Positions 4,191 to 59,113 of a DNA stretch of 64,000 bases are shown in pieces. The notes below the pieces were generated by a model. The model was not told the origin of the DNA. It was given only the letters and a program-made list of their open reading frames with translations, and did no database searches. Origin of the DNA: an uncultured Bacilli bacterium (lineage in GTDB: Bacteria; Bacillota_I; Bacilli_A; RFN20; CAG-288); NCBI GenBank assembly GCA_944349335.1, contig CALVMW010000001.1:1-64000 (forward strand), given 5' to 3'. Positions within the stretch are counted from its first letter, which is position 1. Every line of letters begins with the position of its first letter. Both the position numbers and the translations under genes were made by a program.

Positions 4191-6938
4191 ATGCGCCGTA
4201 TCTTTGCCTACTTGGTGATGATGGTTACGATGGTTGGTGTCATCATCTTCAATATTCAATCGACCTTAGATTTTAAAAATGATGCGATGGAGTTTGGTAA
4301 CGCGACTGAACTTGTATATAAATTGGATAAGAGAGACGTCTCTAATTATAGTGGCGATAACTATCCGACCACTGTCGGTGAAGGCACTTTAGATTTAGCT
4401 GATATCGATATCGAAAGTGAAGTTATGTCACGTTTAGACGACGCTGGCGTCAGAAATGCTGAGGTTGAAGTTGTTCAAGGTGATATCGATAACCAAGGCT
4501 ATGAACTTAGAGTTACACTCTCTCCTTTATCGACTACTGAATTAAATAATGTTAAGAGAATCATCTCTTTCACTGGCTCACTTTCTATTTCCACTATTTA
4601 TGATGATTATACAATGTATGAAGAAAGAGGCGAGTTTTTTAACACAGATGGTGATATCGCTTCTTTGATTTATCAAGGAACTGACCCTTATCCTGTCATC
4701 AATGTTGGAACTGCTACTGACTTTGAAACGATGCAGGAGCAAGCTTCTCAAGCTGCTGAAAACCACGGTGAAGGTAATACCGGTAATACTTCTGAAGATG
4801 ATCAATTAAATGATACTGATGAATCAAATTCTGGCAACCTTCTTTACGTTTGGATGAATAAAACAACTGAAGATACTTACGAAAAAGCTTTCGGTGTAGA
4901 TGATACCCCTCAGATTCAATCTGTTCATGATAAAGTCGTCGCTATCTTAGATGTCAGTAATTATGACTCTCAAAACGGCTATATTACTGTCACTTCTGAT
5001 GTTGACGATTCTGCTTTTACTATCTCTACTGCTCGCGCTTTAGTCGCTGCTTTAAATTCTGAAGATTACGGTTTTGATATCACTTTCCTTTATCAAAATT
5101 CTGTTCCTGCCGCTTTTGGTTCTTCTGCTTTAGATTATACATATATTGCTTATGGCATCACTTTACTTGTCGTCGCTATCTTATTGATTCTTATCTATGG
5201 CGTCAGCGGCGTGACTTCTACTGTCACTATGCTCTCTTCGACTTTTATATCTTTCCTTCTTGCGATGTTGCTCGGTTTTGAATTCTCAGTCGCTGCTTTA
5301 GGCGGTTTAATTGTCGTCATTGCTCTTTCTGTTTTCCTCAGCGCTAATTATTTCAATCATGTTAAGAAAGAGATATTTAATGGAAAATCTTTAGAAAAAG
5401 CTAATAGAGAAGGCTATCATAAATCTTTCTTCCTCTCTTTAGATGTCGCTATTATCAGCTTAGTTGTCTCTCTCTTTGGTTTCCTTCTTGCGACCGGTTC
5501 CTTCCAGACTTTCTTCGGTGTCATCATGATCGGAACCATCGTCACCTTCTTAGTTACTAATTATCTTAATAAATGGGCTACTTACTGGTTGACTAAAGAT
5601 TCTAATAAAGATATGATTCCTTTCTTTGCTCTCTTTAAGAAAAAGGAAAAAGAAGAAAAGAAAGAACCTTATTCTTTCTTGAAAAAGGGTAAGAAGAACA
5701 TTTTAATGCCAATAATCGGTGGATTTTCCATCGCTTTACTCGCTATCAGCTTACCTTTAACTTATTATTTTGCTCCTGGACAGAATCCGACCTTCTTTAA
5801 TAACTCTGGTGCGTTTGAAGACGGATATACCTTAACTATATCTTATAGAATGGATTCTCAATCATATAGCCAATTAGAAACTACTGAAAATTTCTTACAG
5901 TATATTGTAAATATCGGTCTTGATCGTCCTGATGATTTTACTGACGATACTTATGAAGCTATCTCTAGCGAGGATAATATTGAAGCGACAAACCCGTATT
6001 ACTTCATTTATTATCCTGAGAGTGCTAGCGTTAATGTTGTTGAAGCTATCGATGAAGATGAAACAACCTACTATATGACTTACTTCTCAGTTGATGTAGA
6101 TAGAAATTTAACTGATATGGAGTTAGCTAGTGGTAGAACAACTACTAATTTAATTGAAGAAACTATCTTAAATGGTTCAGTTGAAGTCGACGATGTATTT
6201 ATCCATCCCGGAAGTGATTCTCACTTTGTCTATGATAGCTTAGCTGTCGGTTCTTATTTAGTTACACCTACTAATATCAATCATACTTATGAGAACTTCT
6301 TCTTACTTACATTCATCATCTCTATCTTCGCTGCTATTTATGCCTTAGTTAGACATGGTATCTTAGTCTCCTTAACGGAATTAGTTGCTGGTAGTGCTTA
6401 TGCTGCCTTATTAGTCGGTTTATTATCTGCTACAAGAGTCCCCTTCAATTCATACTCTGCTTTCGGTATTATGATATCTTTAATCTTTGTCTTATTTGCT
6501 ATCTTTGCTTTAGTAAGCGGCAACAAAGATATCTTAAAAGAAAGAAAGCTCCGTAGAACTGATAATAATGATATCCGCTTAGAAATTGCCAATAATGTTG
6601 CTAAAGCTAATGTTCCTGCTGTCTTATTAACCTTGGCTTCTGCTTTTGTTTTATCTCTCTCCTTCTTTGTTATCTCTTCCTCCTTATATTCATTATCTTT
6701 GATTACTATCGTCTCTTTAGCCTTATCATTGTTATTTATCTTCTTTGTCATTCTTCCTCTTTATTATTTCTTTGCTTGCCATATTAATTTTAAAAAGTTA
6801 CATAATTATATGGAGAAGAGAAAAGAAAAGAATGCTGCTGAGAAGAAAGAAAAAGTTCAGAATACCGGTATTGTCTATGTTGATGATGATATGCCTCATG
6901 AGACGATTATTCCTGGCTTAAATGAATTTAGACGCTGA
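4191..6938 (+). CDS. secDF: Fused protein translocase subunit SecDF
   Basis: SecDF is an accessory membrane component of the Sec translocon that uses the ion gradient to help pull proteins out. The 915-residue product has a first membrane helix (about 5-22), a large external P1-type domain, a first block of membrane helices starting near 315, then a second half with another helix (about 505-525), an external domain and a final helix block to about residue 870, followed by a charged tail. It is longer than the roughly 740 residues of Bacillus SecDF. Extra length includes a Gly/Asn/Asp-rich linker (183-216), a lysine/glutamate-rich linker between the halves (about 480-505) and the tail. Shine-Dalgarno AGGAGGT supports the start. 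It overlaps recJ by one base. Confidence 0.9.
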   Translation: MRRIFAYLVMMVTMVGVIIFNIQSTLDFKNDAMEFGNATELVYKLDKRDVSNYSGDNYPTTVGEGTLDLADIDIESEVMSRLDDAGVRNAEVEVVQGDIDNQGYELRVTLSPLSTTELNNVKRIISFTGSLSISTIYDDYTMYEERGEFFNTDGDIASLIYQGTDPYPVINVGTATDFETMQEQASQAAENHGEGNTGNTSEDDQLNDTDESNSGNLLYVWMNKTTEDTYEKAFGVDDTPQIQSVHDKVVAILDVSNYDSQNGYITVTSDVDDSAFTISTARALVAALNSEDYGFDITFLYQNSVPAAFGSSALDYTYIAYGITLLVVAILLILIYGVSGVTSTVTMLSSTFISFLLAMLLGFEFSVAALGGLIVVIALSVFLSANYFNHVKKEIFNGKSLEKANREGYHKSFFLSLDVAIISLVVSLFGFLLATGSFQTFFGVIMIGTIVTFLVTNYLNKWATYWLTKDSNKDMIPFFALFKKKEKEEKKEPYSFLKKGKKNILMPIIGGFSIALLAISLPLTYYFAPGQNPTFFNNSGAFEDGYTLTISYRMDSQSYSQLETTENFLQYIVNIGLDRPDDFTDDTYEAISSEDNIEATNPYYFIYYPESASVNVVEAIDEDETTYYMTYFSVDVDRNLTDMELASGRTTTNLIEETILNGSVEVDDVFIHPGSDSHFVYDSLAVGSYLVTPTNINHTYENFFLLTFIISIFAAIYALVRHGILVSLTELVAGSAYAALLVGLLSATRVPFNSYSAFGIMISLIFVLFAIFALVSGNKDILKERKLRRTDNNDIRLEIANNVAKANVPAVLLTLASAFVLSLSFFVISSSLYSLSLITIVSLALSLLFIFFVILPLYYFFACHINFKKLHNYMEKRKEKNAAEKKEKVQNTGIVYVDDDMPHETIIPGLNEFRR

Positions 6939-56076: not shown

Positions 56077-56856
56077 CTATTTATCTCTTTTATAGATTCC
56101 TAACTTTCTTTCGATTTTACCTTTAACTAAGTAGAGAACACCATCCATCAATAATGAAAGAATGATAACAAGTAAGACATAAGCCATCATCAGTTTAAAA
56201 TCAACATTACTATATGCTTGATAAATACTCATACCTAATCCAACCGTTGAAGAAGTATAGGAAAAAGTTTCTGCCATTATTTGGACTTTTAATCCTAACG
56301 ATAAGCTTTGAATTATACCTAATAAAATATAATTTAAGGATAAAGGCATTAAGATATTAGTTAAATTCGATATGTGATTTTTTCCTTTTAAGCGGATTAT
56401 CATTTCATATTGTTGATAATTTTTATTGATACCTTCTAATGTTGCTTGATAAATTATTGGAAATAGTATCATGAATACAACATATATAGATGCATTAGGA
56501 ACAAAAACGATCAATAATAAAATAATGGCAACTGTTGGAATAGCTTTTAAAACAGTGATCAATGGAGAAAGTATCTTTGCTATAGGGTTATAATAACCTG
56601 CTATTGTGCCTAATATAACTCCCCCTATAGTCGAAAAAATTAAAGCGATAAAAAGTCGTAATAAAGTATAACCGATAGCTGCATATGTAGTAGGATTTAT
56701 AAGTAATAAGAAAGCTTCACTTAAACACTGAAAAAACTCTGGGAGAAATAATTGATCAGTTGCAAAAGCGATAATCTCCCAAAGTAAAATCAGCAAAATA
56801 ATTCCTATGCCATATAAAACAAAGCGATTATTAAATATTTTTTTTAATTTATTCAT
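56077..56856 (-). CDS. ABC transporter permease, SsuC/TauC/nitrate type
   Basis: A 259-residue inner-membrane permease with six hydrophobic helices (first about 12-32). The EAA-like loop is visible in GINKNYQQYEMIIRLKGKN (around 145-163), with a conserved Gly. It matches the family importing sulfonates, nitrate, thiamine precursors and similar small solutes. It overlaps the lipoprotein gene by 4 nt. No ATPase gene is adjacent: downstream lies only the AGTACT-rich spacer. The ATPase must be encoded elsewhere or shared. Confidence 0.9.
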   Translation of the reverse strand: MNKLKKIFNNRFVLYGIGIILLILLWEIIAFATDQLFLPEFFQCLSEAFLLLINPTTYAAIGYTLLRLFIALIFSTIGGVILGTIAGYYNPIAKILSPLITVLKAIPTVAIILLLIVFVPNASIYVVFMILFPIIYQATLEGINKNYQQYEMIIRLKGKNHISNLTNILMPLSLNYILLGIIQSLSLGLKVQIMAETFSYTSSTVGLGMSIYQAYSNVDFKLMMAYVLLVIILSLLMDGVLYLVKGKIERKLGIYKRDK

Positions 56857-57908
56857 CCTTCAAAAGCTGCTTTAAAAGCTAAATCAGGAACTAAGCCTTG
56901 TCCGTAAGAAACTACATAATCATCAGGTGAGAATGTCTCATCAGTATCATTTCCAGTGCTAACAACATAAAGATTTCCGAAAGTGACCATCCTGACTAAT
57001 GAATAATTATCACCAGCTAATTTCATACCATTAACAGAGTCAAAGATAATGAAATCACTTTCAGCGGAAGCAAAAGCAGCTTGAACGGTTTGCGCAGAAC
57101 CTGTCACTAGATTATCACTTGAAGCAAAAGCAGTTAAAGCAGCAGAGGGAGCACCGGAAGGAGAAGTGACTGTAAATTCTAGTTCAGAAGTTGTTTCACT
57201 AGTTGAAGGATTGTAGTCAGTAGAATAATAAGTAGAGAATGGAGATGAAGAAAAATCAATTCCTAAAGGTTCATTGAAAATAGAAAATTCATCTTTACTA
57301 GGATTATCGTCTCTAGCGATAAATGCTAAGCCATTTGTCTCTTGAACACCTTTTAAAACGTTCGCATTAAAGCCAAAACGAGAGCTTTGAACACTGACGT
57401 CACTAGAGTAATTATTCATATTTGTTACTGCTTGGCTACCACCTGAGATTAGATCATCAATAGCAGCATCAAAAGTATTTAAAAACTTCTCAATACTTTC
57501 TTTTTTAGACTCGTCTTCTTCAAGTGATTTTTTAATAAATAATCCAGCTTGCGGAAAACCTTCAGTACTAAACTTCTTACCGAATTCTTGAGCAACATCA
57601 TATTTAATTGATAAGTCAGTCGCTTTTGATTCATTTATCATACTAGCATAAATAATAGGATATGAGGAAATAACGTAATCAACCTTAGTTCCTTCATGCA
57701 TTCCTAAGGTGAGAATAGGTCCGGTATCACCAACAGAAGAAACATAAGCGTCTATATATTCTTTAGTTTCATTTACAGTATCATCAAAGGAACTATCAGT
57801 TGATGAACTTGAAATATTAGAAGAAGAGACTAAAGAAGAAGTACCTTGACAGGAAAAAAGAATAGAAATTGTCAAAAAAGATAATAAAGTTAACGATATT
57901 TTTTTCAT
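56853..57908 (-). CDS. Substrate-binding lipoprotein, apparently circularly permuted
   Basis: A 351-residue lipoprotein for the adjacent permease, with signal peptide 1-19 and lipobox ILFSC (Cys20), then a Ser-rich linker. The two halves of the NitT/TauT-type fold appear in reversed order. Residues about 49-200 resemble the usual C-terminal half (GTKVDYVISSYPIIYAS like the G-x-x-D-x-x-V-x-x-x-P strand; EGFPQAGLFIKKSL; IEKFLNTFDAAI). Residues about 243-351 resemble the usual N-terminal half (TSPSGAPSAALTAF; ESDFIIFDSVNG; TFGNLYVVSTG; YVVSYGQGLVPDLAF). Start ATG 57908 gives a proper signal peptide; AAAGGA lies 12 nt upstream. Confidence 0.85.
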   Translation of the reverse strand: MKKISLTLLSFLTISILFSCQGTSSLVSSSNISSSSTDSSFDDTVNETKEYIDAYVSSVGDTGPILTLGMHEGTKVDYVISSYPIIYASMINESKATDLSIKYDVAQEFGKKFSTEGFPQAGLFIKKSLEEDESKKESIEKFLNTFDAAIDDLISGGSQAVTNMNNYSSDVSVQSSRFGFNANVLKGVQETNGLAFIARDDNPSKDEFSIFNEPLGIDFSSSPFSTYYSTDYNPSTSETTSELEFTVTSPSGAPSAALTAFASSDNLVTGSAQTVQAAFASAESDFIIFDSVNGMKLAGDNYSLVRMVTFGNLYVVSTGNDTDETFSPDDYVVSYGQGLVPDLAFKAAFEG

Positions 57909-57925
57909 AATAGTTATAAGTCCTT

Positions 57926-59113
57926 TCAATCGTTTATAAGTTCGCTGATCACTGAGCCGATCTCATTAGGTGAAGGAGTGATACCATAATTTTCTAATAT
58001 GGTTCTACCAATGTCAGCAAAAGTATCTCTCTCATTAAGCAACTTACCATTATTATAAGAAGTTGAGAAAGCTATAAGAGGAACTTTTTCTCTTGTATGG
58101 TCTGTTCCTGTATGAGTAGGATCATTACCATGGTCAGCAGTTATTAAAAGTAGGTCATCTTTGTTTAAGCAATTGATTAAGTCACATAATTGTGTATCGA
58201 AGGCTTCAATAGCATCTCCATAACCAAGAGGATTGCGGCGATGACCATATAATGAATCGAAATCAACTAAGTTTACAAAACAGAGACCAGTAAAATCTCT
58301 TTTAGCAATAGCGATAGTTTGATTCATTCCATCTTCATTTGAGGTAGTGTGAATAGATTCATCGATTCCAGTTCCATCGAAGATATCGTGAATTTTACCG
58401 ACACCTATAACCTTTTTGCCGGCTCTTTGTAAATCATTTAAAGCGATAGTACATCCGACTGGAAGAGCATAATCTCTTCTATCAGAGGTTCTAACAAAAT
58501 GATCTTTATCTTCACCGATGAAAGGTCTAGCGATAATTCGTCCAACCTTCCATTCTTTTTTCATTGTGATCCTTCTTGCAATTTCACAAATCTTATAAAG
58601 TTCATCTAAAGGAATAACAGCAGTATTAGCCGCAATCTGTAGAACAGAATCAGAGGATGTATAGACAATAATTGAGCCTTCTCTCATCGACTGTTCACCT
58701 AAATCATAGATGATCTGTGTACCACTAGCAGCGATATTTCCAATTATTTTACGTCCGCTTTCCTTTTCTAATTCATCAATTAATTCTTTAGGAAAACCAG
58801 TATCAGTAAAGGTAACTAATGGTTCTAAAGTCAATTTTCCCATCATTTCTTGATGACCGGTAAGTGTATCTTTTCCATTCGATTTTTCATTTAATTTCAT
58901 GGTGTAAGAGTGAGGATGAGAAACTTTTGAAGTTCCTAAAATATCCCCTAAATCTCCGATACCTAAATAATTCATGACCGGTACTTTAAGACCGCCCTTC
59001 TTTTCAGAAACATGGACCCAAGTATTAGTTCCGGCATCACCAAACTTATCAGCATCAGCCATCGCACCTATACCGACTGAATCCATCACTATCAAAAATA
59101 TACGTTTAAACAT
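57926..59113 (-). CDS. deoB: Phosphopentomutase
   Basis: DeoB interconverts ribose (or deoxyribose) 1-phosphate and 5-phosphate in nucleoside salvage. The 395-residue product is an alkaline-phosphatase-superfamily enzyme: metal-binding VMDSVGIGAM at the N-terminus, DAGTNTW with the phosphorylated Thr, and ITADHGNDPTHTGTDHTRE near the C-terminus with metal-ligand Asp and His residues. Length is normal. Shine-Dalgarno AGAGGT. A TATAAT is 18 nt upstream of the ATG. The lipoprotein and permease genes follow, suggesting the importer may bring in a nucleoside-related or unrelated solute. Confidence 0.97.
   Translation of the reverse strand: MFKRIFLIVMDSVGIGAMADADKFGDAGTNTWVHVSEKKGGLKVPVMNYLGIGDLGDILGTSKVSHPHSYTMKLNEKSNGKDTLTGHQEMMGKLTLEPLVTFTDTGFPKELIDELEKESGRKIIGNIAASGTQIIYDLGEQSMREGSIIVYTSSDSVLQIAANTAVIPLDELYKICEIARRITMKKEWKVGRIIARPFIGEDKDHFVRTSDRRDYALPVGCTIALNDLQRAGKKVIGVGKIHDIFDGTGIDESIHTTSNEDGMNQTIAIAKRDFTGLCFVNLVDFDSLYGHRRNPLGYGDAIEAFDTQLCDLINCLNKDDLLLITADHGNDPTHTGTDHTREKVPLIAFSTSYNNGKLLNERDTFADIGRTILENYGITPSPNEIGSVISELIND

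Follow-up and report, generated by a model that had tools for sequence, protein, structure and literature searches.

A substrate-binding lipoprotein with exchanged halves

The window analysed here, a stretch of 64,000 nucleotides from an uncultured Bacilli bacterium, encodes on its minus strand a substrate-binding protein (SBP) of 351 amino acids (56853..57908, with the stop codon at 56853-56855). A Shine-Dalgarno-like GAAAGGA (57921..57927, minus strand) lies before the ATG at 57908. The gene for an ABC permease (BPD_transp_1, NitT/TauT/SsuC-like; 56077..56856, minus strand; PF00528, 2e-11) overlaps the SBP stop codon in an ATGA, and its product resembles SaoP, NtrB, TauC and SsuC of NCBIfam, in all cases below the cut-offs. 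The upstream neighbour (57926..59113, minus strand), which we take from family knowledge to be phosphopentomutase-like, adjoins the SBP gene in both of the chain orders that occur among related genomes. Elsewhere in the window, a 915-residue open reading frame amid conserved genes (4191-6938) has no Pfam match at E<=1e-10.

The SBP begins with a lipoprotein signal peptide (57849..57908, minus strand, as are all parts of the protein) that carries the lipobox LFS-C20; signal peptide and lipobox Cys are also present in the complete proteins of congeners. After the lipobox comes the Ser-rich tether that the initial annotation had described; it spans residues 21-49 (57762..57848), with low pLDDT in the predicted structure and now joined to lobe II. 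Alignments equate the block that follows, residues 52-228 (57225..57755), with the C-terminal part of homologues of normal chain order, and the last block, residues 242-350 (56859..57185), with their N-terminal part. The two are connected by a linker of residues 229-241 (57186..57224), STDYNPSTSETTS, which leads from the old C-terminus to the old N-terminus. In the alignment it consists of the ancestral C-terminal end (..YY) and then a Ser/Thr-rich piece resembling the old tether.

The reference for these assignments is the normal-order homologue of a congener, G010 (L038:5912-6967). In BLASTP, residues 52-228 of the window protein match G010 residues 174-349 (59% identity, E 1e-71) and residues 242-350 match G010 residues 63-171 (67% identity, E 2e-39). 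Both matches fall on one G010 protein, in reversed order, and together cover nearly all of both proteins; the two termini of the window protein map to G010 residues 171 and 174, and no part of the normal chain is missing between the blocks. Profile A1, built from 20 normal-order homologues, likewise matches the window protein twice (profile positions 136-322 at residues 38-225 and 23-142 at residues 233-348), and a profile-profile comparison assigns the first permuted block to the C-terminal part of the normal profile at a probability of 100. Chance resemblance was rejected, since two very strong matches fall on one protein in swapped order. The window protein is thus confirmed as a circularly permuted substrate-binding lipoprotein of type II, NMT1/NitT/TauT-like.

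The initial annotation had proposed that the halves were swapped, and the two G010 matches and the double A1 match bear this out: one block finds one half of the homologues and of the profile, and the other block finds the other half. Its view that the chain ends right after the helix GLVPDLAFKA, and that the first block starts exactly where a normal chain continues, proved accurate. The motifs that it quoted are present, and only the span that it gave for the first block, residues 49-200, was slightly short, the alignment giving 52-228.

Predicted structure and fold searches

AlphaFold confidently predicts a two-lobed fold for the window protein (pLDDT 88, pTM 0.82), from an alignment that included half-fragments of normal homologues and therefore favours the normal fold; the G010 protein of normal order reaches similar values (pLDDT 86, pTM 0.79). 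The strands and helices of the window model follow one another as in the normal protein, but rotated, element for element. The G010 strand 176-178 becomes the first strand of the window protein (54-56), the G010 helix 161-169 becomes its last helix (340-349), and the new termini separate a helix from the strand that comes next in the normal order. We take the G010 segment at the cut to belong to lobe II, which presumably extends from the end of the long strands 123-138 to about the strand 243-248; the new termini are therefore placed in lobe II. This rotation agrees with the earlier suggestion that the termini had moved into lobe II. The further suggestion that the swap alters how the open/closed motion meets the permease is speculation.

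The assignment to type II holds for the normal-order orthologues. A Foldseek search with the normal-order model returned 508 PDB chains at E<=1e-3, the best being 3hn0 and others including PqqT, Thi5 and TauA; the best fold matches are thus type II proteins, and homology to type I sugar-binding proteins such as TpMglB-2 was not found. The nearest solved structure, 3hn0 (Parabacteroides distasonis BDI_1369, 'nitrate transport protein'), has the standard chain order and is matched by the normal homologues with an A1 profile E of 1e-9 and a fold E of 4.9e-12 at 16% identity. By sequence, no solved structure was reached other than through this profile of normal-order homologues. One or two of the 20 homologues match Pfam NMT1, VitK2_biosynth or the NCBIfam SsuA family weakly.

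The fold of the normal homologues is thus that of type II SBPs such as NMT1/THI5, TauA/SsuA, MqnA and PqqT, whereas the window protein, with its swapped chain order, matches no model of these. It gave nothing significant against Pfam, NCBIfam or, by phmmer, the PDB, and without a match it does not reach the curated family scores (PF09084, TIGR01728); these empty searches are consistent with its divergence and its chain order. Foldseek, a sequential search, found no PDB match for the permuted model at E<=1e-3 and matched parts only, as is expected of such a search when the chain order is changed.

Genomic context and orthology

In most species of the window genus, of both chain orders, the SBP gene stands between a deoB-like gene and the permease gene, within the series recN-dinB-xer-deoB-SBP-permease (the names recN, dinB, xer and deoB are presumed from family knowledge). 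The SBP is single copy in the window genome, and the flanking genes are the same in both orders. Permuted and normal genes are thus orthologues, not paralogues. As both orders occupy one locus, the swap must have taken place inside one gene, in place, with no other gene acquired.

In four species with the permuted order (G002, G003, G005 and G008; L036, L033, L035 and L044/L045), the SBP-permease pair does not follow deoB. The genes before the pair in G003 and G005 look like hydrogenase or pyruvate formate-lyase genes, so that the pair has moved as a unit.

Three permuted groups with three breakpoints

A search with the normal profile recovered the SBP gene in 225 of the 279 genomes of the order. 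Chain order was read in the genomes with two partial matches and in many with weak single matches, and at least 17 species have the permuted order: ten in the window genus, six in genus g25 and one (G206) in genus g49. This number is a lower bound, some weak matches cut by contig ends being unreadable. Within the window genus the gene occurs in 14 of 15 species. The swapped order that the initial annotation had suggested looking for in related genomes was found in ten of them, complete in nine, the window included (G000, G002, G003, G004, G005, G009, G011, G012 and G014), and the other four (G001, G006, G010 and G013) have the normal order. The tenth permuted gene, in G008, is in two pieces; as each stops at a contig end, it was rejected as a split gene, and so were G108, G234 and G074, where the parts lie at contig ends or on separate contigs.

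Compared with the window genus, the permuted proteins of g25 (G218, G221, G223, G228, G229 and G231), which start with FDYIFTAQPV or a similar sequence, are cut about 20 residues later, and the G206 protein, with YVVLFQQNQ at its start, is cut about 30 residues earlier. In profile coordinates the cuts lie at 145/146 in the window genus, at about 164/167-171 in g25 and at 113/117 in G206, all three in neighbouring loops in the first part of lobe II. Given the different genera and families, the different cuts and the normal-order relatives around each group, these represent three independent events. The permutation has therefore arisen independently, in the same gene, at least three times within the order. 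A class-wide search of 395 genomes with a permuted profile gave no further full-length permuted match among the matches listed; genes with other breakpoints may be hidden there as pairs of partial matches.

One permuted gene of g25, in G229 (L179:5094-5903), has an internal deletion and a frameshift, with the remainder in another frame, and is either a decayed gene or an assembly error.

Direction of change and a probable reversal

Readable genes outside the three groups are in normal order, and this order is therefore taken as ancestral. Within the window genus, the normal-order gene of G013 is sister to the permuted gene of G009 in the SBP tree (99/97), and the two species are also sisters in the marker and species trees (SH-aLRT 96 and 86). 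Grouping G013 with the other normal species is rejected by the SBP (p 0.018), by the markers (p 0.023) and by the C block alone (p 0.0006). Trees of the separate blocks place G013 with G009 for the C block (95/93), in agreement with the whole-protein tree, while the N block, at 110 columns, is too short and resolves the placement of G013 weakly. Exactly at the old breakpoint, G013 has a Ser/Gly tether-like linker, EGDSKAGDSTVAGDTG, that it alone carries among the normal homologues aligned. On this evidence we somewhat favour a reversal, in which the permuted gene of G013 would itself have been duplicated and cut back to the normal order. Alternatively, recombination with a normal allele may have replaced the N block of G013.

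The best trees place the remaining normal-order clade of the genus (G006, G001 and G010) inside it as well. A basal position for this clade is not rejected (p 0.075, 0.069 and 0.2), so that one gain and one reversal suffice in the window genus. For g25, the test likewise does not reject one gain with no reversal (p 0.08).

The strongest competitor to one gain with reversal is a series of repeated independent gains, up to four, within the window genus. Parsimony on the SBP tree counts four changes, and AU tests reject a single permuted clade in the genus (p 0.013 for the SBP; p 0.004 for the three marker proteins GyrA, AspS and PheT), G013 being one reason. Against this, all permuted genes of the genus have one breakpoint in common, whereas independent gains elsewhere differ in their cuts, and it is the nested normal gene of G013 that has a tether-like linker at its relatives' breakpoint. 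Repeated gains within the genus therefore seem unlikely, if still a serious contender.

The G013 assembly is one contig of 2.08 Mb (L043, L119/L121) with split reading frames in dinB and aspS, which suggests residual frameshift errors; the SBP gene is open.

Probable origin by duplication in place

The step from one order to the other is best seen at the DNA level between G206 and its normal-order sister G205. The two sequences are colinear on the promoter side, which includes the signal peptide, and on the permease side; only the two inner blocks, 72-73% identical, are exchanged. The joining peptide of G206, YYEK-RSVGTHAS-DISSLKIISP, is made up of the old C-terminal end, eight residues and the tail of the old tether; the counterparts in G205 are an end in YYK-stop and DINTLKIISP. 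To judge by their residues, the linkers of G206 and of the window genus look like remains of both old termini, as is expected if the gene had been duplicated.

Duplication is a described route to permuted proteins (PMC3320104), and we consider it most likely that the permutation arose in place by this route. The SBP gene would have been duplicated in tandem, after which the first copy would have lost its front half and the second copy its back half. No duplicated intermediate was found in the window genus or in g25, where it was sought. Two tandem normal-order SBP genes lie after deoB in two genomes of genus g2 (G021, L048:1791-3919; G020, L049:5944-8256), a duplication of the sort that could give rise to a permutation.

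The other standard route is fission followed by re-fusion of the half-genes in the other order (PMC3320104). It appears improbable here: in no genome examined do the halves stand as separate genes within a contig, the splits in G008, G108 and G234 being contig ends; each half of a lipoprotein would have needed a signal peptide of its own; and the linkers resemble leftovers of both old termini. Still less probable is a fusion of halves from two diverged paralogues that only mimics a permutation. The tandem paralogues of g2 could supply such fragments, yet both halves of the window protein are closest to the same single-copy G010 orthologue at the same locus, the window genome has no second copy, and between them the halves supply every element of one predicted fold, each a single time. 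Joining two identical tandem copies, on the other hand, would amount to the duplication route proposed here.

Constraint and predicted function

Rough dN/dS values, obtained with dS near saturation, are 0.10 (G012/G004) and 0.16 (G005/G002) for pairs of permuted genes and 0.16 for a pair in normal order; the permease gives 0.08. The permuted proteins share many invariant positions, including those of GFPQAG, P-GAP, FD and GNL. By these measures the permuted genes are under purifying selection, and this selection and the conserved synteny argue that the protein still works. That they might be decaying copies without function is suggested by the deletion and frameshift in G229, and is very hard to reconcile with the low dN/dS of the permuted pairs, the many invariant positions and the lipobox and adjacent permease that the complete genes retain. 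An artefact of assembly or gene calling has a negligible chance even though the permuted genomes are probably metagenome bins, some of them fragmented, as the permuted order is in frame in long contigs (875 kb for the window, 93 kb for G012/CASDVP010000008.1, 250 kb for G228 and 151 kb for G206) and recurs in many separate assemblies, where the junction is constant within each genus and constraint is strong.

An SBP and a permease gene without a nearby ATPase gene form an arrangement that is conserved across the order. No ABC ATPase reading frame with an LSGGQ motif was found in the SBP-permease loci examined. The window genome has 42 ABC ATPase domain matches elsewhere, none of them above the ntrCD cut-off and none a clear partner, and a shared ATPase is therefore assumed. 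As there is a single permease gene, the channel is presumed to be a homodimer. By analogy, the system probably serves ABC-type uptake of a solute. The window protein would fold as a usual two-lobed SBP whose chain starts and ends in lobe II, with the Ser/Thr-rich linker joining the old termini and the lipid tether attached to lobe II instead of lobe I. It would bind a small solute in its cleft and hand it to the adjacent permease homodimer, the ATPase being encoded elsewhere.

For the observed chain order, orthology by position, three breakpoints and constraint, our joint explanation, to which we assign a probability of roughly 0.8, is a functional, naturally permuted type II SBP that originated by duplication in place, with at least three gains and probably one reversal. 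We hypothesize that a pseudo-twofold SBP on a symmetric channel may tolerate its tether on either lobe. More tentatively, the SBP gene could be regarded as an evolutionary switch that has been flipped in place, three or more times away from the normal order and one or more times back to it; the repeated flips would then be explained by a two-lobed SBP working equally well on a symmetric homodimeric permease with the tether on either lobe. We hold this to be possible and rather doubtful. If true, it would mean that the order of the halves is nearly neutral and reversible.

Comparison with known permuted proteins

Most known cases of natural circular permutation are ancient differences that separate distant relatives, and their route and cost are therefore hard to test. 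Here, orthologues that are about 60-75% identical, with the same flanks and the same permease, occur in both orders, which provides a clean natural experiment on the re-wiring of a protein. The permutations of saposin/swaposin and of DNA methyltransferases are deep events between paralogues or families; unlike them, the swap described here separates orthologues of sister species with colinear flanks. Duplication is likewise the likely route in those two cases (PMC3320104).

TpMglB-2 (Tp0684) of Treponema pallidum, of 'type Ic / cluster Bc', is a circularly permuted, membrane-tethered SBP lipoprotein that still binds its ligand and closes, and its relatives are found mainly in treponemes and Gram-positive gut bacteria (PMC4990184). 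Its authors suggested that permutation and membrane anchoring might be connected (PMC4990184). TpMglB-2 and the window protein are both membrane-tethered lipoproteins of permuted topology; the former belongs to the type I sugar-binding proteins, and its permuted part is poorly conserved relative to the standard one (PMC4990184), whereas the latter is type II and NMT1-like. The window system also differs from TpMglB-2 in having close orthologues of both orders at one locus, three breakpoints and a probable reversal. A literature search of incomplete coverage returned no report of a permuted NMT1-type or type II protein of this kind, nor of recurrent or reversed permutation among orthologues. 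Permuted proteins like the window protein can be missed by sequential family and fold searches.
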